Below are positions 11,900 through 37,760 of a DNA stretch of 64,000 nt, in pieces (position 1 is the first letter of the stretch; the number at the start of each line of letters is the position of its first letter). The translations under genes and the position numbers were made by a program. The stretch is taken from assembly GCF_016863035.1 (NCBI RefSeq), contig NZ_BOOC01000029.1:62001-126000 (forward strand), given 5' to 3'. The notes below the pieces were generated by a model, which was given only the letters and a program-made list of their open reading frames with translations, was not told the DNA's origin and searched no databases. Source of the DNA: Microbispora corallina. GTDB lineage: Bacteria > Actinomycetota > Actinomycetes > Streptosporangiales > Streptosporangiaceae.

Positions 11900-13263
11900 C
11901 GCCGGTGCGGCGGGTCGGCGGGCGGGCCGCCGTAGGGCCCCCCGGGCCCCGGGGGGACGCCGTAGGGCCCCTGCGGCGGGCTTCCCGGCGGGCCGCCGTA
12001 CGGGCCGGGGTCGGGGAACCCGGGGTGGCCGGGGCCGAACCCGGGCGGCGCCGCTCCTGGCGCTCCCTGCTGGAAGGGGGGCGGGGCGCCCGGCGCGTAG
12101 CCCGGCGGCGGCACTCCCCGGGCGGCCCGGGCCCGGTGGTGCTCGGGCAGCGGGAACGACAGCCGGGCGTAGGCCATCAGGTCGGCCAGCGAGCGCTGGG
12201 TGGTCCGGAACGCGGGCTCGTCGACCCCGCCCCTGGCCGCCCGGGCGTGCAGCAGCCCCAGCTCGGTGGCGGCGAGCTGGTAGTCGCTCATCGCCCGGGC
12301 GCCGGCCCGGCCGCCGTGCGCCTTGGCCCACGCGCGCGCCTGCCGCCGGCGGCGCAGCGACGACAGCATGAAGATGTCGGCCTGGTTGACCAGCCCGTTC
12401 CGCTCGTACGGAGGCAGGTAGAAGTGGATGAGCCCCACGATCCGCTTCCTGTCCCTGAAGATCACCAGGAGCTCCACCACGAGCAGGATCATCAGCAGCA
12501 GGTAGGCGAGGGCCAGCCCGCCGAGCCCGCCGAAGGAGGCGAAGCCGTTCCAGATGCCGTGCAGGGCCATCGCGCCGATCCAGCCGACGACGATGACGAA
12601 CACGCCGGTCGCGCCCCGGCGCTGGGCGGCGTACGCCACGGAGATGCCGATCAGCGAGGTGAACAGCGGGTGGGCGAACGGCGAGAGCACGGCCCGGAGC
12701 ACGAGCGTGGCGGCCAGGCCCTGGGCGCCGTTCTGCTCCAGCGCGGCCAGGTAGTAGCTGACGTTCTCCGACATGGCGAAGCCGAGGCCGACCATGCTGG
12801 CGTAGATGATGCCGTCGGTGGGGCCGTCGAGCTCCTGGCGGCGGAACCACAGCAGCCCGAGCAGGACGAGGCCCTTCAGCGTCTCCTCCACGGGCGGCGC
12901 GCCGAACGTGGCGACCAGGTTGCGGGCGTTGGCCGCGTCCCCGAGCGTGTGGGCGACGTAGACGAGGTTGAGCGAGTTGAGGATGCCGGCGAGCAGGACG
13001 GCGATGCCCGCCCCCCAGGCGAAGGCGAACACGAGGTTGCCGCGTGGCTCGGGCTCCATCCGGTCGAGCGCGAGGACGCCCGCGAGCAGCAGCGGGACCG
13101 GCGCGACCGCGAGCCCGAGCGCGATGAAGAACTGCACGGGATCGCCGTTGAGGATGTCGAAGGAGAACGACACCAGCGCGCAGATCCCGGCGACGACCAG
13201 ACCGGCTATCAGGCCGACCGATGGGCGCTCCTTCAGCACCCCCCGCGGATCGAGGCTCGCCAT
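11893..13263 (-). CDS. PrsW-family intramembrane metalloprotease with Pro/Gly-rich tail
   Basis: PrsW proteases cut within membranes, classically removing anti-sigma factors. The protein has about 456 residues. All three expected motifs are visible: EExxK in PPVEETLKGL, FxxxE in GFAMSENVSYY and a histidine motif in ALHGIWNGF. About eight to nine membrane helices cover roughly residues 15-280. A soluble region follows, and the last ~70 residues are a low-complexity tail of GGPPG, GPYG and PPGY units. The start is ATG 13263; the frame is open upstream without a better ribosome binding site. The substrate is unknown and no anti-sigma factor is adjacent. It overlaps the end of the DJ-1 gene by seven bases tail-to-tail. 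Confidence 0.88.
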   Translation of the reverse strand: MASLDPRGVLKERPSVGLIAGLVVAGICALVSFSFDILNGDPVQFFIALGLAVAPVPLLLAGVLALDRMEPEPRGNLVFAFAWGAGIAVLLAGILNSLNLVYVAHTLGDAANARNLVATFGAPPVEETLKGLVLLGLLWFRRQELDGPTDGIIYASMVGLGFAMSENVSYYLAALEQNGAQGLAATLVLRAVLSPFAHPLFTSLIGISVAYAAQRRGATGVFVIVVGWIGAMALHGIWNGFASFGGLGGLALAYLLLMILLVVELLVIFRDRKRIVGLIHFYLPPYERNGLVNQADIFMLSSLRRRRQARAWAKAHGGRAGARAMSDYQLAATELGLLHARAARGGVDEPAFRTTQRSLADLMAYARLSFPLPEHHRARAARGVPPPGYAPGAPPPFQQGAPGAAPPGFGPGHPGFPDPGPYGGPPGSPPQGPYGVPPGPGGPYGGPPADPPHRRY

Positions 13264-13440
13264 TCCGCGACTGTAACCGACCACGGCCCCCCGGTCCCCT
13301 CCGACCCCGAAGATCCCCGTCTCCTGTGACGCTGCCCTCCCGAACGGTACGTAACCGCACGGCTTCCGTGAAGGGCGGCGGTGGGACACGGTACCGTCGC
13401 GATCACGACGGCACACGGCACGGGACGAGTGGGCGGGTTC

Positions 13441-15997: not shown

Positions 15998-16255
15998 GGC
16001 ACTTCCAACACGTGCGGGGTCAACGCGTAACCTCTGATAGGAGCGGATCTCCGGGCAGCTGCCGGCACTTGCGCAAACACTGTAGTCGGCGCGGCAGGTG
16101 GTCCAGGAATCGGGGCCGAATGGGCGGCGTTGAGGGGCCTGGGCAGGGTAGCCGTACCGCGGTGCCTACCGGACGGTATGAGAGCCGACCCGTTAGGGTC
16201 CCCTATGGGCGGGAACTGCCACAACCAGCGCTAAAACCAGAGGAGATCGAGCATT
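15998..16255. promoter_or_regulatory. Divergent ctaB / tkt promoter region
   Basis: These 258 bases contain the start signals for ctaB (left) and the tkt operon (right). A TAGGGT -10-like hexamer at about 16193-16198 faces tkt, roughly 60 bases upstream of its TTG. No convincing -35 or known operator is seen. Confidence 0.45.
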
Positions 16256-18358
16256 TTGAGCAGCGCAAGCCTTGATTGGACTGATCTCGATCGACAGGCC
16301 GTCGACGTCGTGCGCGCCCTGGCGATGGACGCCGTGGAGAAGGCGGGCTCGGGACACCCGGGCACCGCGATGAGCCTCGCCCCGGCCGCCTACCTTCTGT
16401 TCCAGCGGGTCCTTCGCCACGACCCGTCGGACCCGAAGTGGGTGGGACGGGACCGGTTCGTGCTCTCCGCCGGGCACAGCAGCCTCACTCTTTACATCCA
16501 GCTGTACCTGTCCGGCTACGGCCTGACCCTCGACGACCTGAAGGGGCTGCGGCAGTGGGGCAGCCTCACCCCCGGCCACCCGGAGTACGGCCACACGGTC
16601 GGCGTGGAGACCACCACCGGGCCGCTGGGCCAGGGCCTCGGCAACGCGGTGGGCATGGCCATGGCCGCCCGGCGCGAGCGCGGCCTGTTCGACCCGGACG
16701 CCGCCGCCGGCTCCTCGCCGTTCGACCACATGATCTGGGTCATCGCCTCTGAGGGCGACATCGAAGAAGGCATCAGCCACGAGGTCAGCTCCATCGCGGG
16801 CCACCAGAAGCTCGGCAACCTCTGCGTGATCTTCGACTCCAACCAGATCTCCATCGAGGACGACACCCAGATCGCCCTCTCCGAGGACATCGCCAAGCGG
16901 TACGAGGCGTACGGCTGGCAGGTCCTGGAGGTCGACTGGCGCAGCGACGGGGAGTACAAGGAGGACGTCCACGCGCTGTACGAGGCGCTGGAGGCGGCCC
17001 GCGCGGAGACCGAGCGTCCGACGTTCATCAAGCTGCGCACGATCATCGCCTGGCCGGCCCCCAACAAGCAGAACACGGGCAAGGCCCACGGCTCGGCGCT
17101 CGGCGCCGACGAGGTGGCCGCCACCAAGCGGATCATGGGCATGGACCCGGAGAAGAGCTTCCAGGTGCCGGACGAGGTCCTCGCGCACACCCGGAAGGTC
17201 GTGGAGCGCGGCCGTGCCCTGCGCGCGGAGTGGGAGGAGGGCTACCGCGCCTGGCGGGAGGCCAACGCCGAGCGGGTCGAGCTGTTCGACCGGATGCGGC
17301 ACCGCCGGCTCCCGGACGGCTGGGACAAGGCGCTGCCGTCGTTCGACGCCGGCACCTCGATCGCCACCCGCAAGGCGTCCAACGAGGTGCTGAACGCGCT
17401 CGCGCCGGTGCTGCCCGAGCTGTGGGGCGGCTCGGCCGACCTCGCCGAGTCCAACAACACGACCATGAAGGGCGAGCCGTCCTTCATCCCGGACGAGTAC
17501 CAGACCAAGGAGTTCCCCGGGAACAAGTACGGCCGGACGCTGCACTTCGGCATCCGCGAGCACGGCATGGGCGCCATCCTGAACGGCATCGCGCTGCACG
17601 ACGGCACCCGCCCGTACGGCGGCACGTTCCTGGTGTTCAGCGACTACATGCGCCCGTCGGTGCGGCTGGCCGCGCTGATGAAGCTCCCGGTCACCTACGT
17701 CTGGACCCACGACTCCATCGGCCTCGGCGAGGACGGCCCGACCCACCAGCCGGTCGAGCACCTGTGGGCGCTGCGCGCGATCCCCGGCCTCGACGTGGTC
17801 CGCCCGGCCGACGCCAACGAGACGGCCGCCGCCTGGAAGACGGTGCTGGAGCACAACGACCGGCCCGCCGGTCTCGCCCTCACCCGCCAGAACGTCCCGA
17901 CCTATGCCGGCACGGCCGACCCGGACAAGGTCGCCAAGGGCGGCTACGTCCTGGAGGACGCGTCCGACGGCCAGCCGCAGGTGGTACTGATCGGCACCGG
18001 CAGCGAGGTCCAGCTCGCCGTCGAGGCCCGCGAGATCCTGGAGGCCGAGGGCATCACGGCGCGCGTCGTGTCGATGCCGTGCGTCGAGTGGTTCCGGGAC
18101 CAGGACGCGGCGTACCGGCAGACGGTGCTGCCCCCGGCCGTCCGCGCCCGCGTCGCCGTCGAGGCGGGAATCGGCCTCGGCTGGCGGGAGTTCGTGGGGG
18201 ATGAGGGCGAGATCCTGAGCCTGGAGCACTTCGGGGCCTCCGCCCCCTACAAGACGATTTTCGAGCAGTTCGGCCTCACGGCCGAGCGGGTCGTGGCCGC
18301 CGCCAAGGCGACGCTGGCGAAGACCGGCGCCGACAAGGGCGAGACGACCGGAAACTGA
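16256..18358 (+). CDS. tkt: Transketolase
   Basis: This is the thiamine-diphosphate enzyme of the non-oxidative pentose phosphate pathway. It moves two-carbon units between xylulose-5-P and ribose-5-P or erythrose-4-P. The 700-residue length is normal. Motifs are [13 protein letters not shown] near the N-terminus, [16 protein letters not shown], the diphosphate/metal loop [11 protein letters not shown], and [11 protein letters not shown] with [19 protein letters not shown] in the pyrimidine domain. The start is TTG 16256, preceded by AGAGGAG about ten bases upstream. It heads a six-gene operon whose members are separated by 5-55 bases. Confidence 0.97.
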
Positions 18359-31299: not shown

Positions 31300-32010
31300 G
31301 TGGACAAGCGGGTGGTCGTCGTGGACGACGACGACATCAGCCGCAACGGCGTCGCCGTGATCCTCACCGGTGTGCCGGGGCTGCGCCTGGTCGCGGCTCT
31401 CACCCACGAGGACGCGGCCGGGTGGGGCGGGCGCTGGCGCGACGCCGACGTGGTGCTGGTCGACGCGGCCGACGAGCGGCGTGAGGGGGACCAGTTCCCC
31501 GGCGTCGCCGTCGTCGAGCAGGTGCGGCGGCACCGCCCCCAGGCGCTGGTGATCGTCTTCACCGGCCACTTCTTCGACGGCGCCGTACGGCGGCGCATGC
31601 GGGAGGCCGGGGCCGACCTGTTCTTCCACCGCGGCGAGCTGGCCGAGGCCGCCACGCTCCGCGCCGTCGTGCTGGGCGGCACGGGCCGCCCGGTCCCCGG
31701 TCCGGAGGACCCCGAGGAGGAGATCCGGCACGGCGTGTCCCGGCGGAGCACGGTGAACGCCGCCGTGTCGCACGCGATGGCCGCGGACCTCCCCGGACGG
31801 CTGGCCGAGCGGCGCAACCCCCGGTCACGGGCCTGGGAGCGGCTGCGGCGGGAGTTCAACCGGCATGCCGGGCTGCACGCGATGACCTGCGACGGCCGCG
31901 CGCCCGACCGGGAGCAGGACCTGCCCTCACTCCCGCAGATCGCCCGCTTCCTGCGCTGGGCGACCCGGGTGAAGTCGCCCTACCCCGGCCGCCTCGACGG
32001 CCGCGGCTGA
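31300..32010 (+). CDS. Atypical response-regulator-like protein
   Basis: This 236-residue protein has an N-terminal receiver domain: acidic pocket VVVVDDDDIS (residues 5-14), phospho-acceptor Asp55 in VVLVDAADE and Thr88 in VIVFTGHFF. The usual switch lysine is replaced by His110/Arg111 (FFHRGEL). The C-terminal ~90 residues (AWERLRREFNRHAGLHAM, then PSLPQIARFLRWATRVKSPY) do not match a standard LuxR or OmpR DNA-binding domain that I can recognise. The start is GTG 31300. It is followed after 18 bases by a large membrane protein, probably its partner. Gene reality is clear; DNA binding is uncertain. Confidence 0.75.
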   Translation: MDKRVVVVDDDDISRNGVAVILTGVPGLRLVAALTHEDAAGWGGRWRDADVVLVDAADERREGDQFPGVAVVEQVRRHRPQALVIVFTGHFFDGAVRRRMREAGADLFFHRGELAEAATLRAVVLGGTGRPVPGPEDPEEEIRHGVSRRSTVNAAVSHAMAADLPGRLAERRNPRSRAWERLRREFNRHAGLHAMTCDGRAPDREQDLPSLPQIARFLRWATRVKSPYPGRLDGRG

Positions 32011-32028
32011 TCCCGGGCCGGGTCGCCG

Positions 32029-33804
32029 ATGGCGGGGCTTCCGGCGTTCACCGAGGTCGCGGCGCGCTCGGCCACCTTCGCCTCGCACCGGTTCCTGCTG
32101 AACCTGCGGATCTCGTCCCGGCTGACGTGCACGACGGCGCTCCTGCTGCGCAGGCCGGCCGCGCCGCACGTCGTGATCGCCGCCGCCGCCCTCTTCGTCG
32201 CCTACGACGTGGCCCTGTTCTGCGTCCTGCGCCGGGGCGTGCCGGTGCCGCACCGCCTGCGGCTCGCGGCGGACGCCGCCGACGCCGCCGGCTGGTCCGC
32301 CGCGCTCGTGTCCCCGCTCGCGCCCGCGGCGCTGATCGTGGCGCCCCTCGCGATGGAGGCCGCCCTGTGGCGGGGGTGGCGGGCCCTCGCCGTACCGGCC
32401 CTGTCCGGTTCGGCGACCGTGGCGGCGCTGCTGGCCCTCCAAGGCCGGACCGGCGGACCGCTCACCGTGCTCCCCGCCTTCGCCCTGCCCGCGTTGGGGA
32501 TGCTCGGCGGGCTGCTGCTCAGCCGGTACCTGCAGGGCCGGGTGCACGAGCGGCTGCGGCAGGCGGAGGCGGAGCGGCAGGCCGCCGCCGGACGGGCCGA
32601 GCTGGCCGGACGGCACAGCGTCGCGGTGGGCGCGGACACCGCGCTCGACGTGCTGACCCGGACCTGGCCGCTGCTGGCCGTGCCGGGCGAGCCGATCGGC
32701 TTCCCCCTGGCGGCGTGGCGGCACGCGCTGGCCGAGCGGACCGCGGACCAGGCCGACTACCTGGGCACCGCGCTGCTGCGCTGGGAGCAGCGGCACAACA
32801 TGGCCCACGCGGAGCTGCGCCGGGACGTGGAGTTCGCGGTCGCCCGGGAGGCGGCTCCGCTGCTGATCTCGCCCTCGCAGCTGGCCGCGCTGGACGGGGC
32901 GCTGGCCGGTCTGGGGCTGCGCGGACGGGTGCCGGTGTCCGTCCGGACACCGCGGCCCCTCGGGCATCCGCAGGTGCTGGCCGTCGGGCCCCACCGGGTG
33001 GAACTGCCCCAGGACCCCCTGTCGCGGGTGCCGCCGTTCGACCCGGGGCCGATGGTGATCGCGATCGGCGGGATCGGGTCGCTCACCCACGCGCTGCGCG
33101 AGATGGACGGCGTGCCGCTGCCCGTCGCCGCCTGCCTGACGGCGGTGGCCCTGCTGGTGAGCCTCTGGGCGCACCGGCAGATCGCCGCGCGCGGCAGCGC
33201 CGCCCGGCCCCGGGTCCTCGCCGCCTGCCTCGCCTTCGGCGCGCTCGACGCCGTGGTATCCACGGCCACGATGACGACGCTCCGCGCGGGCGGCATCACC
33301 CGGCAGCCGTACCTGCACTTCCTGCTGTTCGCCGGGCCGACGGCGACGATGTACCTGCGGGACCTGTCGTGGCGGTGGCGAACCGGGGCGCTGTCGGCCG
33401 CCGGCGCAGTCCTGGCCGTGTCGGTCGCGCTGCTGTCCGTCCCGTTGTCGCCGGCGGACGCGCTGGGCCTGCTGTGGCCGCTGGCGTTCACCGTCGGCGC
33501 CTCCAGCCTGCGCGACCTGCTCGACGAGGAGAACCTCGCGTTCGGCGACGTCATCGAGCGGGAGCACGACAGGGCGGTGGCCGAGGGGTTCCGGCGGGGG
33601 CGGGAGGAGGTGCTCCGGCTGGTGGAGTCCTCGGCGGCGCAGGCGCGGGACCGGCTGCGCCGCCGCCGGGACCTCATCGACCCGGTGTTCCTGCCGGAGA
33701 TCGAGCGCCGCCTCGACCATGTCGGGCGCTGCCTCGCCGACCTGCGGTCGCGGTCACAGGGAGGCGGGCGCTCGCCGGGCTCACGGACTCCCCCGCCACG
33801 GTGA
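32029..33804 (+). CDS. Large membrane protein, putative sensor partner of the response regulator
   Basis: I do not recognise the family. The 591-residue protein has two membrane blocks. The first, about residues 45-165, has four to five helices; the second, about residues 360-500, has about five. Between them lies a cytoplasmic coiled region (RVHERLRQAEAERQAAAGRA) and a mixed domain. A C-terminal helical tail with GFRRGREEVLRLVESSAAQA follows. I see no HATPase N or G boxes and no clear DHp histidine. So if it signals to the adjacent receiver protein, it does so unconventionally or as a pseudokinase. ATG 32029 lies 18 bases after the regulator. Its last 131 bases overlap the end of the convergent mauE-like gene. 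Confidence 0.65.
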   Translation: MAGLPAFTEVAARSATFASHRFLLNLRISSRLTCTTALLLRRPAAPHVVIAAAALFVAYDVALFCVLRRGVPVPHRLRLAADAADAAGWSAALVSPLAPAALIVAPLAMEAALWRGWRALAVPALSGSATVAALLALQGRTGGPLTVLPAFALPALGMLGGLLLSRYLQGRVHERLRQAEAERQAAAGRAELAGRHSVAVGADTALDVLTRTWPLLAVPGEPIGFPLAAWRHALAERTADQADYLGTALLRWEQRHNMAHAELRRDVEFAVAREAAPLLISPSQLAALDGALAGLGLRGRVPVSVRTPRPLGHPQVLAVGPHRVELPQDPLSRVPPFDPGPMVIAIGGIGSLTHALREMDGVPLPVAACLTAVALLVSLWAHRQIAARGSAARPRVLAACLAFGALDAVVSTATMTTLRAGGITRQPYLHFLLFAGPTATMYLRDLSWRWRTGALSAAGAVLAVSVALLSVPLSPADALGLLWPLAFTVGASSLRDLLDEENLAFGDVIEREHDRAVAEGFRRGREEVLRLVESSAAQARDRLRRRRDLIDPVFLPEIERRLDHVGRCLADLRSRSQGGGRSPGSRTPPPR

Positions 33805-34312
33805 GCCCGGCGAGCACGGCCAGGAGGCGCTCCCCGCCCACCAGCAGGGCCGCCGCCGCCGCGCCGGCCAGGCCGCAGGCCGCCACCTCCCCGGCGTCAC
33901 GGGGCGCGGCCGCGCCGCCCGCCGCGGCCGCCACGCCCACGGCCAGCAGCAGGACGCCGTTGCGGACCAGGTGCCACGGGCCGACCGGTGACCGCGCGCC
34001 GCCGAAGCAGGCGCAGCCCCGGCGGGTGCCTCGCCGTACGGCCAGGGCCAGGGCCGGGGTGAACGCGGCCAGCAGCGCTCCGGCCGCCGCGAGCCCGTAG
34101 GGCGCGGTCCCGCCGGACGGCAGCGCCAGGGCCGTCGCGGCCTCCGCCGCCGCGATGAGCGCGGCCGCCGCAGAGGAGAGCCGGGTGCCGGGGACCCGCC
34201 CGATCTCCCGGACGGCGGCGGCGAACGCCGAGGGGTGTCGTGCCTTGCCCGCCACGGCCGCCGCGAAGACCAGCGACAGGGCGATCCTCAGCGACAGCGC
34301 CAGGTATCCCAT
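33674..34312 (-). CDS. MauE/DoxX-type redox-associated membrane protein
   Basis: This membrane protein of about 212 residues has four to five helices and belongs to the MauE/DoxX group. MauE assists disulfide formation in methylamine dehydrogenase. The signature is YLALSLRIALSLVFAAAVAG followed by GKARHPSAFAAAVREIG, and the CxC of RRGCACFGG (Cys100, Cys102). ATG 34312 has AGGAGG five bases upstream; GTG 34315 is possible. It overlaps the S26 peptidase stop by one base. It is the last gene of the peptide operon. Its job is probably to pass electrons or disulfides to the six-cysteine peptide together with the MauD-like protein. The C-terminal 130 bases overlap the opposite-strand sensor gene. 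Confidence 0.82.
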   Translation of the reverse strand: MGYLALSLRIALSLVFAAAVAGKARHPSAFAAAVREIGRVPGTRLSSAAAALIAAAEAATALALPSGGTAPYGLAAAGALLAAFTPALALAVRRGTRRGCACFGGARSPVGPWHLVRNGVLLLAVGVAAAAGGAAAPRDAGEVAACGLAGAAAAALLVGGERLLAVLAGLTVAGESVSPASARLPVTATAGRRGSARHGRGGARSPAGTPGR

Positions 34313-34860
34313 CACGGCCTCCTTCCCGCCGTCCCGGCTCGCCGCACGAGCACGCCGACGACCACGCCGGCCACAGCCGACACGGGCACCAGCCCCCAGG
34401 TCCGGGAGTCGGCGCTCGACTCCGCGTCCCCGAACACCACGAGGCGGCCGGGAGGCACCCGCCCGGCGCCCACCGCGGCCCGTGCGGCCTCCGGGACGGG
34501 GTCCCCGCCGACTGCCACGACCCTCTTCACCAGGTACGGCCTGACCTGCGGCGGCGCGATCGCCCAGCCCGGCGGGGGCAGGAACACCACGGCGCGTCCC
34601 CGTACGGGCGGCAGCCGGGCCGCGAGCAGGCGGTCGCCGTCGCGGTAGGCGGGGGCCATGCTGCTGCCCCGCACGGTGACGACCACAAGGAGCCGGCGCG
34701 CGAGTGCGGCCGTGAGCACGAGGGCAAGCACGACGGCGGGCACGAGGATGGGCGCGGCGGCGGGCACGAGAGTCGGCCCCAGAGTGGGCACGACGGCGAG
34801 CACGACGATGGGCACGACGATGGGCGCCGTCGCGGCGAGGGCCGCGGGCAGAGCGGTCAC
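34312..34860 (-). CDS. S26 family signal peptidase
   Basis: This membrane-bound type I signal peptidase homologue has about 182 residues. An extended hydrophobic Val/Pro/Ala-rich N-terminus (about residues 10-60, two helices) anchors it. The catalytic serine lies in VRGSSMAPAY (Ser67) and the lysine in YLVKRVVAVGGD (Lys112), followed by FGDAESSADSRTWG, all canonical. The start is GTG 34860 with GAGGAGG five bases upstream. It lies directly after the small peptide gene, so it is the likely protease that removes the peptide's leader. It is small and separate from housekeeping lepB genes, which fits a dedicated role. Confidence 0.88.
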   Translation of the reverse strand: MTALPAALAATAPIVVPIVVLAVVPTLGPTLVPAAAPILVPAVVLALVLTAALARRLLVVVTVRGSSMAPAYRDGDRLLAARLPPVRGRAVVFLPPPGWAIAPPQVRPYLVKRVVAVGGDPVPEAARAAVGAGRVPPGRLVVFGDAESSADSRTWGLVPVSAVAGVVVGVLVRRAGTAGRRP

Positions 34861-34882
34861 GACGTCCTCCTCTCCCCCGGTT

Positions 34883-34910
34883 CCGGCCGGAGGCAGGGGC
34901 CTCCGGCCGG
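34883..34910 (-). terminator. Hairpin between precursor peptide and peptidase genes
   Basis: CCGGCCGGAGGC (34883-34894) pairs perfectly with GCCTCCGGCCGG (34899-34910) around an AGGG loop. It lies 16 bases past the peptide stop and 22 bases before the peptidase start. It could be a partial terminator or RNA-stabilising end that raises precursor mRNA over downstream genes. Confidence 0.75.
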
Positions 34911-34925
34911 GCGGGGACGGCCGGT

Positions 34926-35111
34926 CTACTGGCAGTAGTGACTGACGGAGACCCAGTCGCCGGAGCAGGCGTGCCCGCACCAGGTGGTGAAGCACGAGCG
35001 GCCGGGAGCGATGACGTTCTGCTCGGTGTAGCAGTAGTAGTCGCCGCAGTGGTAGGCGCGGGCCTCCACGGACGGCAGGACGCGGGTCAGCAGTGCGCGC
35101 AGGGCGGACAT
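34926..35111 (-). CDS. Six-cysteine precursor peptide (candidate new secreted peptide)
   Basis: This 61-residue peptide is the likely product of the operon. Residues 1-19 form a short, weakly amphipathic leader (MSALRALLTRVLPSVEARA) ending in Ala17-Arg18-Ala19, a type I signal peptidase A-x-A site. The predicted core of 42 residues has six cysteines at 22, 27, 40, 45, 49 and 60, enough for three disulfides. It is rich in Tyr, His, Trp, Ser and Thr, with the block SCFTTWCGHACSG. The leader lacks the long hydrophobic core of a Sec signal, so the ABC exporter is the likely route. The start is ATG 35111 with AAGGAGG four bases upstream, the strongest ribosome binding site here. I know no matching family. 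Confidence 0.8.
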   Translation of the reverse strand: MSALRALLTRVLPSVEARAYHCGDYYCYTEQNVIAPGRSCFTTWCGHACSGDWVSVSHYCQ

Positions 35112-35169
35112 GGTTCCTCCTTCGGGTTGCGGATGTGTTCTGCGGTCTCGGTGCCTAGGACTGGCGGGC

Positions 35170-37032
35170 TCACCTCCCTCCGGCGGCCGACGGCACCTGG
35201 CGGTCCCGGTAGCCGCCCGCCTGCAGCGCGAACAGGCGGGCGTAGACGCCGCCGAGATCGATCAGGGCGGCGTGGGTGCCGCGTTCGGCGACCCGGCCGC
35301 CGTCCAGGACGACGATCTCGTCGGCGTCCCGGAGCGCGTTGAGGCGGTGCGAGACGAGCAGCGCCGCCCGGCCGCGGCTCAGCTCCATCAGCCGCTCGTG
35401 CAGGGCGTGCTCGGCCTCGGGGTCGAGGCCGGCGCTGGGCTCGTCGAGGATCATGAGGTCGGCGCCGGACCGCAGGAACGCCCGGGCGACCGCCACCCGC
35501 TGCCACTGACCTCCCGACAGCTGGGCGGCGTCGCGGTCGTCCATCCCGGCGAAGACCCTGCTCAGCAGCGTGTCGTAGCCGCGCGGCAGGGCCGCCAGCG
35601 CCTCGTCGATCCCCGCCGCGCGGGCCGCGCGGCGGACCGCCTCGAGGTCGTCCAGGGCGTCGAGCCGGCCGGCCCCGACGTTCTCCCGGGCCGTCAGGTC
35701 GTAGGCCACGAAGTCCTGGAAGACGGCCGTCACCCGGGACCGCAGATCGGCGGCGTGGGCCTCCCTGACGTCCCGGCCGTCCCACAGGACGGCGCCGCGC
35801 TCCGGCTCGTACATCCGGCACAGCAGCTTGACCAGCGTGCTCTTGCCCGCCCCGTTCACACCGACGAGGCCGATCCGCGCGCCGCGCGGGATGACGAGGT
35901 CGACGCCGCGCAGCACCCAGGGCGCGCCCTCGCCGTACCGGAACCACACGTCCCGCAGTTCGACGGCGCGGCGCAGGGGCGCGAGGGGGGCGGAACCGGC
36001 CGGCGGGCCGGCGGGCGGCTCCTCGATGATCTCGCGGTACGCGCCGAAGAGCAGCAGCGCCTTGTACGCCCCCGCGACCCCGTCGGTCGCCGTCGTCGCC
36101 GCTCCATAGACACCCGTCAGGGCGGCGAGGAACAGCGCCACGTCGCCGAGCGTGATCCGCCCGGCCGCCGCCTGGGCGGCCGCGGTGACAACGCCCGCGA
36201 CCGTGACGGCCCCGGCCAGCAGCTCAAGGCCGGTGTGGGTGCGGGTCAGCCGCCGTTCCAGGCGACCCTCGGCGTCGCTCGCCGCCCGGGCCTCGGCCAG
36301 CATCCGCTCACGCAGGAAGTGCCCAAGGCCGAACAGCCTGATCTCCTTGGCCGCGCCGACGTCGGTCAGCAGCATCTGGTACGTCACCTCGCGCCGGACC
36401 AGCGGCGACAGCCGTACGGTGAGGGCGGCCCTGCGCCGGCCGGCCCCGGTCTGCAGAATCGCGGCGGGCACGGCCCCGGCGAGGACCACGAGCACGCTCG
36501 GCGGCCAGACCATCACGAGCGTGGCGAGGAATCCGGTTCCCTGGACGGCCGCGCGGATCAGCCCGACGGCCGAGCGGGTGAGCTCTCCGGGCGCCTGGCC
36601 GCCCGCCTGGGTGGCCAGGCGGAGCCGGTCGAGGTACGCGGGACTCTCCAGCCGGTCGAGCCCGACGTGCTCGTTGATCCTGCGGAACAGCCGGTCCGCC
36701 GCGACGAGCCTGGCCGACCGGGCCAGCGTCCCGGACAGGTAGGACGCGACCCCGCGGTGCGCCCCGGACAGCAGGCCGGCGGCCGCGAGACCTGCGGCGG
36801 CGACCGCCACCCGGCCCGTGTTCCCGGCCGGGCCGCCGGCCAGCGCGTCGATGAGCCGCTTGGTGAACCAGGCGGACACCGGCGGGAGCAGCCCCTCCAG
36901 CACCGCCAGCGCGAGGACGACCAGAGCCGGGCCGCGCCCGGCGGCGAGCCCCAGGCGGGCGGCGGCCGCGGCGGCGCGCGCCAGATCGCGCGGGGTCCCC
37001 GCCGTCCGGCCGTCCCGGCGGACGGCCCTCAC
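35170..37032 (-). CDS. ABC exporter, fused membrane and ATPase domains
   Basis: This 620-residue type I ABC half-exporter has a membrane domain of about six helices to residue ~330 and a nucleotide-binding domain thereafter. The latter has Walker A VGVNGAGKSTLVKLL, signature LSGGQWQRVAVA, Walker B LMILDEPSAGLDPEAE and switch LLVSHRLNALRDAD. There is no N-terminal C39 peptidase domain, so leader removal needs a separate protease, which the operon supplies (S26). GTG 37032 overlaps the stop of the thioredoxin-like gene (GTGA). It lies 58 bases upstream of the peptide gene and is its likely exporter. Confidence 0.92.
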   Translation of the reverse strand: MRAVRRDGRTAGTPRDLARAAAAAARLGLAAGRGPALVVLALAVLEGLLPPVSAWFTKRLIDALAGGPAGNTGRVAVAAAGLAAAGLLSGAHRGVASYLSGTLARSARLVAADRLFRRINEHVGLDRLESPAYLDRLRLATQAGGQAPGELTRSAVGLIRAAVQGTGFLATLVMVWPPSVLVVLAGAVPAAILQTGAGRRRAALTVRLSPLVRREVTYQMLLTDVGAAKEIRLFGLGHFLRERMLAEARAASDAEGRLERRLTRTHTGLELLAGAVTVAGVVTAAAQAAAGRITLGDVALFLAALTGVYGAATTATDGVAGAYKALLLFGAYREIIEEPPAGPPAGSAPLAPLRRAVELRDVWFRYGEGAPWVLRGVDLVIPRGARIGLVGVNGAGKSTLVKLLCRMYEPERGAVLWDGRDVREAHAADLRSRVTAVFQDFVAYDLTARENVGAGRLDALDDLEAVRRAARAAGIDEALAALPRGYDTLLSRVFAGMDDRDAAQLSGGQWQRVAVARAFLRSGADLMILDEPSAGLDPEAEHALHERLMELSRGRAALLVSHRLNALRDADEIVVLDGGRVAERGTHAALIDLGGVYARLFALQAGGYRDRQVPSAAGGR

Positions 37033-37568
37033 CGCACCGCCTCCAGGCCGGCCTGGGCGAGGCCGTGACCGGCGCGCCGGACCCGGCCCTCCGACACGAC
37101 CAGGACGGTGGGGAAGGCCGTGACGCCGAGGGCGTCCGCGAGCGGATGCCTCCCGTCGGCGTCCGCTACGTGCGCGACCGGGGCGAAGTCCCGCACGTGT
37201 ACGGCACGCCCGGCCGCGCCGCCGGAGACGACCACGAGCGGCCTCGGCGCGCCGGCCGGCAGGGCGGCGAGCGCGCGGCGCAGCCCGCCGGCGAGCTCCT
37301 CGCAGGCGGGGCAGTCGGTGGTGAGGAAGGCGAGGACGCGCTCGTCCTCGCCCCGCTCCGCCAGGTCGACGACGGCGCCGTCGACTGTGACCACCCGTGT
37401 CGGCGGCACCGGTGTGCCGGCCTCGGGCAGGACGGGGCCGCGGGCGGTGCGGCGGGAGACCACCTCGTACAGGTCCCGGCAGCGCCGGACGGCCAGCAGG
37501 GCGACGGCGAGGGCGGCGAGCGCGAGGAGGGCGCCCAGCACCGTGACGGTCCACAGCAGCGCGTTCAT
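37029..37568 (-). CDS. MauD/TlpA-type membrane-anchored thioredoxin-like protein
   Basis: This 179-residue protein has one N-terminal membrane anchor (about residues 5-27) and an extracytoplasmic thioredoxin fold. The active site is FLTTDCPACEELAGGL with Cys86 and Cys89 (CPAC), and the cis-proline lies in LGVTAFPTVLVVSEG. MauD, its nearest named relative, works with MauE in disulfide formation of a cysteine-rich enzyme subunit. Here the target is likely the six-cysteine peptide. ATG 37568 has GAGGA seven bases upstream; the frame is open further up without conserved sequence. It is the first gene of the leftward operon. Confidence 0.87.
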   Translation of the reverse strand: MNALLWTVTVLGALLALAALAVALLAVRRCRDLYEVVSRRTARGPVLPEAGTPVPPTRVVTVDGAVVDLAERGEDERVLAFLTTDCPACEELAGGLRRALAALPAGAPRPLVVVSGGAAGRAVHVRDFAPVAHVADADGRHPLADALGVTAFPTVLVVSEGRVRRAGHGLAQAGLEAVR

Positions 37569-37760
37569 GCCGGCATCCTCGGCCGGCGGGCCGCGTGAAA
37601 CGGCGACCCGGAACGCGCGGCCGGCCGGGCTAGCGTGGCCGGTTAAGCGTGATCCCGGTCCGTCCACGTCCGCGCAGGCCGGCGGCCTGCGGCCCGCTGA
37701 CGGCCGCCTCCTCAGACCTGCACCTTTCACCCACGCTCAGCCCGGACCTCGGAACGGGGC

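Follow-up and report, generated by a model that had tools for sequence, protein, structure and literature searches.

A conserved pairing of an atypical response regulator with a membrane protein lacking kinase motifs: a possible pseudo-two-component module of actinomycetes

Within a stretch of 64,000 nucleotides from the soil actinobacterium Microbispora corallina (contig NZ_BOOC01000029.1, positions 62,001 to 126,000; hereafter the window, meaning this whole stretch), two neighboring genes encode an atypical response regulator, here called REC, and a membrane protein of 591 amino acids (aa) that lacks the motifs of histidine kinases. The two genes recur together in many actinomycetes, and we propose, with a probability of roughly 0.48, that they form a conserved pseudo-two-component module, in which the membrane protein is a receptor that controls the atypical response regulator by binding it. 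This estimate was lowered slightly for the mixed decay of the pair and for a histidine of the membrane protein, His382, both of which are considered below. The fuller picture, in which these are single-chain duplicated receptors with a cyclase-like build and half of a kinase ATPase domain, signal without phosphate to a cognate pseudo-receiver and have been borrowed by a peptide system in some strains, we regard as rather doubtful when taken whole.

The first line of evidence is the pairing itself. The membrane protein is encoded in three of the 15 genomes of the genus and 13 of the 297 genomes of the family, the window's own genome included. REC adjoins the membrane gene at ten of the 12 other family loci, and the remaining two hold membrane-gene fragments only, with no REC within 20 kb. 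Named genomes scanned for the membrane protein on its own yielded no relative (209 pattern stretches, none confirmed), and a search of named genomes with the REC alignment yielded 25 loci. Their hosts are Microbispora, Nonomuraea, Microtetraspora, Thermocatellispora, Thermoactinospora, Actinomadura, Actinoallomurus and a Streptosporangiaceae bacterium, with further REC loci in metagenome-assembled genomes (MAGs) labelled Acidimicrobiaceae, Actinomycetes and, once, Bacillota. A membrane gene lies next to REC on the same strand at 22 of these 25 loci, or at 12 of 15 after dropping the ten records that had already been found via the membrane gene. Gene order is evenly divided among the 22 pairs, with REC first in 11 and the membrane gene first in 11; 17 of the pairs overlap or are at most 20 bases apart, and five are separated by 79 bases to about 0.8 kb, spacings that depend on the start codons we chose. 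At the Microbispora siamensis locus an opposite-strand thioredoxin gene stands between the two genes of the pair. The three loci without an adjacent membrane gene are L059, where REC is spread over two frames, and L060 and L061, where REC stands alone within the flanks examined; these two partnerless homologues (L060 7968-8684, L061 8001-8723) both have Asn as the second acidic residue.

The two proteins also appear to have diverged together: their pairwise distances correlate at r = 0.90 over the 22 pairs, a value reached in none of 2000 permutations and to which shared ancestry contributes. The ratio of nonsynonymous to synonymous substitution rates (dN/dS) is 0.22-0.48 for REC (eight comparisons) and 0.24-0.61 for the membrane protein (nine comparisons), with all 17 comparisons below 0.62; by this measure the pair is under purifying selection. 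Given this selection and the recurrence of the pair across many actinomycetes, the two genes constitute a conserved module and are more than chance neighbors; random genomic association, which the initial annotation of this DNA had named as the outcome that would undo its prediction, is not borne out by adjacency at 22 of the 25 REC loci. The distribution is uneven. Counting REC alone, strong matches occur in 17 of 345 genomes of the order. Strong matches to the membrane-protein profile occur in four of 394 genomes of the class, all in the window's own family, and the membrane family is therefore sparse outside its home group. Twelve further weak matches in those 394 genomes, read by eye, look like unrelated membrane proteins or chance stretches and were set aside.

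The receiver domain of REC departs from the canonical pattern. In Pfam, REC matches only PF00072, at 24.2 bits, below the cut-off of 30.2. The predicted fold of the whole protein (AlphaFold; mean predicted local distance difference test, pLDDT, 94.0) nevertheless places its receiver part beside VraR, DesR and other NarL-type receivers, with Z scores of about 16, and the top three rows of a search of PDB sequences are the NarL-family regulator spr1814. Our alignment has 24 rows, namely the window's protein and 23 homologues, and excludes L049, in which an internal deletion removes the region of residue 111, and L059, with its split REC. Across it Asp55 and Thr88 are present in every row and the position of the switch lysine is occupied by arginine, Arg111, again in 24 of 24, just as the initial annotation had noted that the receiver keeps the former two residues and has lost the lysine. 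Since Thr88 lies inside one of the two search patterns used for the REC loci, its conservation is partly by construction; both Asp55 and Thr88 are also invariant in the 11 rows recovered via the membrane gene. The phospho-acceptor loop, DAADERREGDQFPG, runs from Asp55 to Gly68, with Asp64 and Gly68 invariant (24/24), and is gap-free throughout the alignment (DAA...DQFPG). At 13 residues from Asp55 to Gly68 the loop is enlarged, the corresponding distance in CheY being eight residues. A receiver without any one of the five active residues is classed as a pseudo-receiver, and Lys to Arg is named among the common replacements in a recent account (PMC12632262). REC, with a receiver fold that lacks at least one of these five conserved residues, thus belongs with the atypical response regulators.

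The C-terminal domain of REC is the likely output, and it too is unusual, as had been anticipated: it fits no output-domain family in Pfam, and no GerE match was found in the protein. The model shows helices at 152-161, 164-170, 177-190 and 211-222. The domain is basic in all 24 rows, its net charge being +2 to +10 where that of the receiver part is 0 to -14, and Arg175, Arg177 and Arg183 are invariant. Foldseek aligned full-length RcsB across it, with a poor overall superposition, and one NarL-family regulator aligned structurally over residues 2-225 at 7.8 Å. Hence, DNA binding by the predicted domain is plausible. In a search of 346 genomes, strong matches to this domain occurred only in the window's own genome and one other, a distant member of the phylum that has them in three places (L144, L148, L149). 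A PADLOC match of REC to SduA (17.9 bits) falls on the receiver part, and we attach no significance to it.

The membrane protein finds no place among the families of Pfam or NCBIfam. Its best Pfam match has an E-value of 0.64, and NCBIfam gave none. Over an alignment of 23 rows (the window's protein and 22 homologues), a Pfam scan at E ≤ 10 found no kinase or HATPase family (HisKA/HisKA_3, HATPase_c) in any row, nor did Pfam detect a class III cyclase catalytic domain. As a control, both domains are readily seen in the canonical kinase near the M. siamensis locus (HisKA_3 at 64.7 bits, HATPase_c at 50.6), and the window's genome contains 51 HisKA_3 sites, none inside the membrane-protein gene. 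No histidine is invariant across the 23 rows, the commonest being His382, which adjoins a positively charged loop, and His256. Position 202, which can be superimposed on the kinase histidine, is Ala in 21 rows, His in one (L046) and Arg in one (L054). No N, G1 or G2 box is conserved, box-like patterns in the alpha/beta stretch being seen in just three of the 23 rows. Invariant residues include G201, D203, D207, N257, D266 and Q284. Descent of the sequence from histidine kinases was pursued through Pfam, PDB sequences (where the search showed no kinase relation), 24 kinase cores, 24 kinase hairpins and 29 open reading frames (ORFs) from the kinase loci of the same genome, picked by motif and a few perhaps in the wrong frame; none rose above the null, and only hints from the predicted fold point to a kinase origin. 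The initial description of a 591-residue partner with two membrane blocks, helical cytoplasmic parts and no HATPase boxes has thus stood up, both in the Pfam scan of all 23 rows and in the AlphaFold model.

That model (pLDDT 87.5, predicted template modelling score, pTM, 0.78) predicts helices at residues 7-40, 46-68, 75-93, 105-141 and 148-201, then shorter ones to 259, a strand-helix-strand-strand-strand unit at 267-326, and C-terminal-half helices at 339-355, 364-414, 427-445, 448-468, 475-545 and 555-577. How many of these helices cross the membrane is uncertain, given their weak hydrophobicity. When the structural aligner was run on candidates from Foldseek, its ten best rows were membrane adenylyl cyclases (AC5, AC8 and mostly AC9) at Z 9.2-12.1, with 289-397 residues superposed at 5.6-8.4 Å and both membrane blocks spanned; the next row, at Z 8.8, is unrelated. 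The two halves of the chain (1-266 and 336-582) can also be aligned with each other by profile-profile comparison, at a score of 31.7 and an E-value of 8.8e-4 over 207 collinear columns with a WP motif in register. In the controls, 40 column shuffles reached at most 20.7, two reversals gave 13.0 and 12.0, and the 29 kinase-locus ORFs reached at most 27.4. These profile scores make an internal duplication suggestive, and the model suggests a single-chain pseudo-dimer whose blocks are arranged as in the membrane adenylyl cyclases, with long cytoplasmic helices. The alpha/beta stretch aligns with the CA domain of PhoQ (Z 6.3, 82 residues, 2.9 Å; Foldseek probability 0.82, E 2.7) and with that of AdeS (Z 5.7), and three histidine kinase CA-domain entries, PhoQ twice and AdeS, fall on the same stretch, about 239-330. 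Thus, the modelled fold suggests a truncated domain that weakly resembles the ATPase domain of histidine kinases. A clear HATPase fold had been set out beforehand as a finding that would overturn the reading of this protein as kinase-free; the model goes a little way towards it, with half of a kinase-ATPase-like domain, but the nucleotide-binding boxes are absent.

We propose that the membrane protein would be a receptor whose single chain carries two related membrane blocks and so forms a built-in dimer; its cytoplasmic helices and truncated kinase-like domain could serve as a docking platform that neither makes nor passes phosphate. The two blocks would be shifted by a ligand encountered within or at the membrane, and the cytoplasmic helices would then change register; in the strains that bear it this ligand may be the exported Cys-rich peptide described below, and elsewhere something else. 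REC might be held or released, or reshaped, by this contact, and once freed or altered its basic helical C-terminal domain would act on DNA. The altered active site of REC, with arginine for lysine and an enlarged loop, suits control by protein contact.

Several observations weigh against this proposal. On the side of structure, Foldseek returned no match for the membrane model at E ≤ 0.001; the Z scores of the cyclases (12) and of PhoQ (6.3) fall within the range for which the aligner itself warns that helical proteins may merely share a common arrangement, and unrelated structures tie with PhoQ in Z. HHalign gives the half-to-half alignment a probability of only 23%, and two of six other membrane proteins score 31.9 and 31.1 against the second half, these two being related to each other and having been chosen since the full profile had matched them by chance. 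Profile-profile comparison with 24 canonical kinase hairpins scored 11.5 (60 shuffles up to 17.3, reversed 10.5), that with 24 kinase cores gave an E-value of 0.19, and for REC the comparison with nine LuxR helix-turn-helix domains from the loci gave 12.1 against 8.2 reversed, which is no match. His382, kept in 21 of 23 rows at a helix end in membrane block 2, and His256, in the hairpin in 15 of 23 rows, are unexplained. REC may still be phosphorylated, because it keeps Asp55, Thr88 and, in 21 of the 23 rows covering that region, the acidic pair. Finally, the decay of the pair is mixed and only partly joint: the two loci with membrane-gene remnants lack REC and the frame-broken REC of L059 lacks a membrane gene, but at L026/L038 and L029/L037 the REC frame is intact and the membrane gene next to it is frame-broken, and at L027/L049 it is REC that has suffered an internal deletion and the membrane gene that is intact, some of these breaks being possibly assembly errors.

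The retained residues open the way to an explanation by conventional chemistry, namely that REC works as a receiver and obtains its phosphate from another histidine kinase or a small phosphodonor, the membrane protein being only a phosphatase or scaffold, a role in which kinase-dead histidine kinases can serve. The intact Asp55, Thr88 and acidic pair, the 51 HisKA_3 sites of the genome and the canonical kinase gene close upstream at one locus, that of M. siamensis, are all in keeping with it; yet the lysine is replaced by arginine in every REC row, and no kinase was seen among the recurring neighbors. The same idea could draw on an overlay, prompted by the single member with His202, of residue 202 and the invariant D203 and D207 on the H-box, H-D-xxx-Q, of HisKA_3 kinases, in which Gln is the phosphatase residue. 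The overlay is without statistical support, Asp sits at the position where Gln is needed, and 15 genomes searched by pattern yielded no kinase subfamily whose H-box is similar; we keep it only as a lead, since the sequence comparisons with kinases gave nothing above the null. On balance we think this explanation unlikely. The absence of kinase sequence homology from every search made, together with the weak and partial kinase-like fold match, would also be expected if the membrane protein were unrelated to histidine kinases, for instance a channel, transporter or lipid-binding protein that recruits a receiver. This is improbable in our estimate, as the PhoQ (twice) and AdeS CA entries converge on one stretch and the pairing with a receiver protein is near constant. 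It is very unlikely that the membrane protein has an enzymatic activity of a kind not yet described, which could include phosphorylation of REC by a novel kinase: the invariant polar residues D203, D207, N257, D266 and Q284 and the near-invariant, unexplained His382 would fit such an activity, but no known catalytic family matches and the predicted soluble part is small.

The remaining alternative ties the pair to the peptide operon with which it lies tail-to-tail in the window, as its dedicated sensor, regulator or immunity device. The operon encodes a 61-aa Cys-rich peptide with a leader-like start, for which Pfam and NCBIfam gave no family at E ≤ 1. Relatives are found in M. siamensis (70%) and a Streptosporangiaceae bacterium (31%, plus a second peptide gene), so that, on a profile built from three sequences, the peptide occurs in three of the 297 family genomes. 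The pair is adjacent in all three, an agreement expected by chance at 6.6e-5 if the genomes are independent and the same 297 serve for both searches. Peptide and pair occupy two separate sites in these genomes: the M. siamensis set, with the thioredoxin gene between the pair genes, lies elsewhere as a whole, without the amidohydrolase and TPI neighbors and with a Tn3 transposase fragment in the same 20 kb. Nevertheless, 13 family genomes carry the membrane gene and ten of these have no peptide match (two of the ten have gene remnants only), none was seen in the examined flanks of the MAG loci, and two of the three peptide genomes are congeneric. A scan of 32 loci for Cys-rich peptides (at least six Cys or a leader-like motif, with a Shine-Dalgarno filter), judged by eye, was likewise convincing only in M. 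siamensis and the Streptosporangiaceae bacterium. An exclusive role in the peptide system thus seems unlikely. The initial annotation had suggested that the pair may sense the peptide or control its operon and had called for checking whether the two co-occur; in the three genomes that have it the peptide indeed comes with the pair, but specificity of the pair for the peptide is not supported, the pair mostly occurring without it. Because ten of the 13 genomes lack the peptide, the peptide system has probably borrowed an older sensing pair. In the Streptosporangiaceae bacterium (L025) two different Cys-rich peptide genes (13126-13314 and 16059-16268, + strand) lie close together, encoding 62 and 69 aa with ten Cys apiece; a LuxR-type regulator gene precedes, and S26 peptidase is matched twice. 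The M. siamensis locus L026 (2241-2888, 11368-12636) has its canonical histidine kinase gene nearby and a frame-broken membrane gene.

Returning to control of REC by binding, the nearest functional parallel is DivL of Caulobacter, which is described as lacking kinase and phosphatase activities and as binding DivK~P through its regulator-docking interface (PMC4211667). The likeness lies in a kinase architecture repurposed for reading a receiver, whereas DivL keeps its histidine kinase region and binds a phosphorylated receiver (PMC4211667); here the kinase-like part is truncated and without sequence homology, and the receiver is atypical and encoded next door. In Corynebacterium glutamicum, a ChrS variant with a damaged CA domain is reported to shape signalling still as a catalytically inactive membrane kinase, by way of a lab-evolved frameshift that acts via a partner kinase (PMC9491836), in contrast to the present family, where the missing kinase parts are common to all members. 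Among regulators, those of the NarL/RcsB/DesR type resemble REC in their receiver fold (Z about 16) and in the Foldseek alignment of full-length RcsB, and REC differs from them in its Lys to Arg change, loop insert and lack of a LuxR helix-turn-helix sequence match. As for architecture, the membrane adenylyl cyclases AC5, AC8 and AC9, which we compare alongside Rv1625c, likewise have two membrane blocks per chain and helices reaching into the cytoplasm; unlike them, the present protein has no cyclase domain and no sequence match, and its output would be a transcription regulator. Duplication and fusion are described as the origin of the eukaryotic cyclases, and their membrane domains as sensing lipids (PMC9552081, PMC11606603, PMC12505454), these domains being reported as lipid receptors (PMC11606603), and exchange of the membrane anchor of one cyclase for the quorum-sensing receptor CqsS is reported to give a ligand-regulated cyclase (PMC4821796).

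Pseudo-receivers and pseudo-kinases are already known kinds of exception; what is new here is their stable pairing and the proposed single-chain build. In open-access papers, which cover part of the literature only, we found none on this REC/membrane-protein family. A 2025 minireview calls the switching of pseudo-receivers a mystery and counts 18 of its 20 described examples as orphans and two as non-orphans (PMC12632262), and REC differs from those atypical response regulators in having a conserved membrane partner. A pseudo-receiver with a conserved and usually adjacent partner turns the question of switching into a two-gene experiment. If the proposal holds, this would be a two-component system in which neither component performs the usual phosphotransfer chemistry, and if the pseudo-dimer is real, a further example, alongside the membrane adenylyl cyclases, of a membrane receptor whose dimer has been joined into a single chain.

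The layout of the locus is collected in the table below. Both ORFs lie where they had been placed at the outset, 18 bases apart, and the overlap of the membrane-protein gene with the MauE-like ORF of the peptide operon is real, spanning 33674-33804. It looks incidental, because the 3' end of the MauE-like ORF, compared by eye, is not conserved and MauE and REC do not overlap at the M. siamensis locus. Genus-mates of the window's genome include Microbispora catharanthi as well as M. siamensis.

Table. Features of the pair and of the adjoining peptide operon, in positions of the window
Feature	Coordinates	Strand	Remarks
REC, atypical response regulator	31300..32010	+	GTG start, 236 aa
Pseudo-receiver domain of REC, residues 1-130	31300..31689	+	Asp9/Asp10 acid pair, Asp55, Thr88, Arg111 replacing Lys; from AlphaFold, fold match and column counts
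C-terminal helical domain of REC, residues 138-228, probably DNA-binding	31711..31983	+	Basic throughout the 24 rows (net charge +2 to +10)
Membrane protein of 591 aa, proposed to be a pseudo-dimeric receptor in a single chain with no kinase activity	32029..33804	+	ATG start
Membrane block 1, residues 7-172	32047..32544	+	AlphaFold helices; hydropathy peaks at 58, 128, 155
Cytoplasmic signalling helix and hairpin, residues 175-262	32551..32814	+	Invariant G201, D203, D207, N257
Small alpha/beta domain, residues 265-330	32821..33018	+	Truncated; resembles a kinase ATPase domain in fold only
Membrane block 2, residues 339-497	33043..33519	+	Suggestive homology with block 1; contains His382
C-terminal cytoplasmic helices, residues 498-577	33520..33759	+	
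MauE-like membrane protein	33674..34315	-	PF07291, 83 bits; tail-to-tail with the pair, 131-base overlap
Rest of peptide operon: S26 peptidase, 61-aa Cys-rich peptide (34926-35111), ABC exporter, thioredoxin-like protein	34312..37730	-	

No recurring target gene was seen beside the pair outside the ancestral Streptosporangiaceae site, and no shared promoter motif was seen in the upstream stretches, read by eye and without statistics. Two loci have a similar-looking, probably secreted protein after the membrane gene (L027 8555-9142, L028 10972-11586), the L028 copy of which has a weak PA-IL lectin-like match at 17.1 bits, below the cut-off. In the Acidimicrobiaceae MAG L053 (1152-2208, 6244-8690), about 4 kb separate the pair from TPI and SecG, which are also its neighbors in Streptosporangiaceae.

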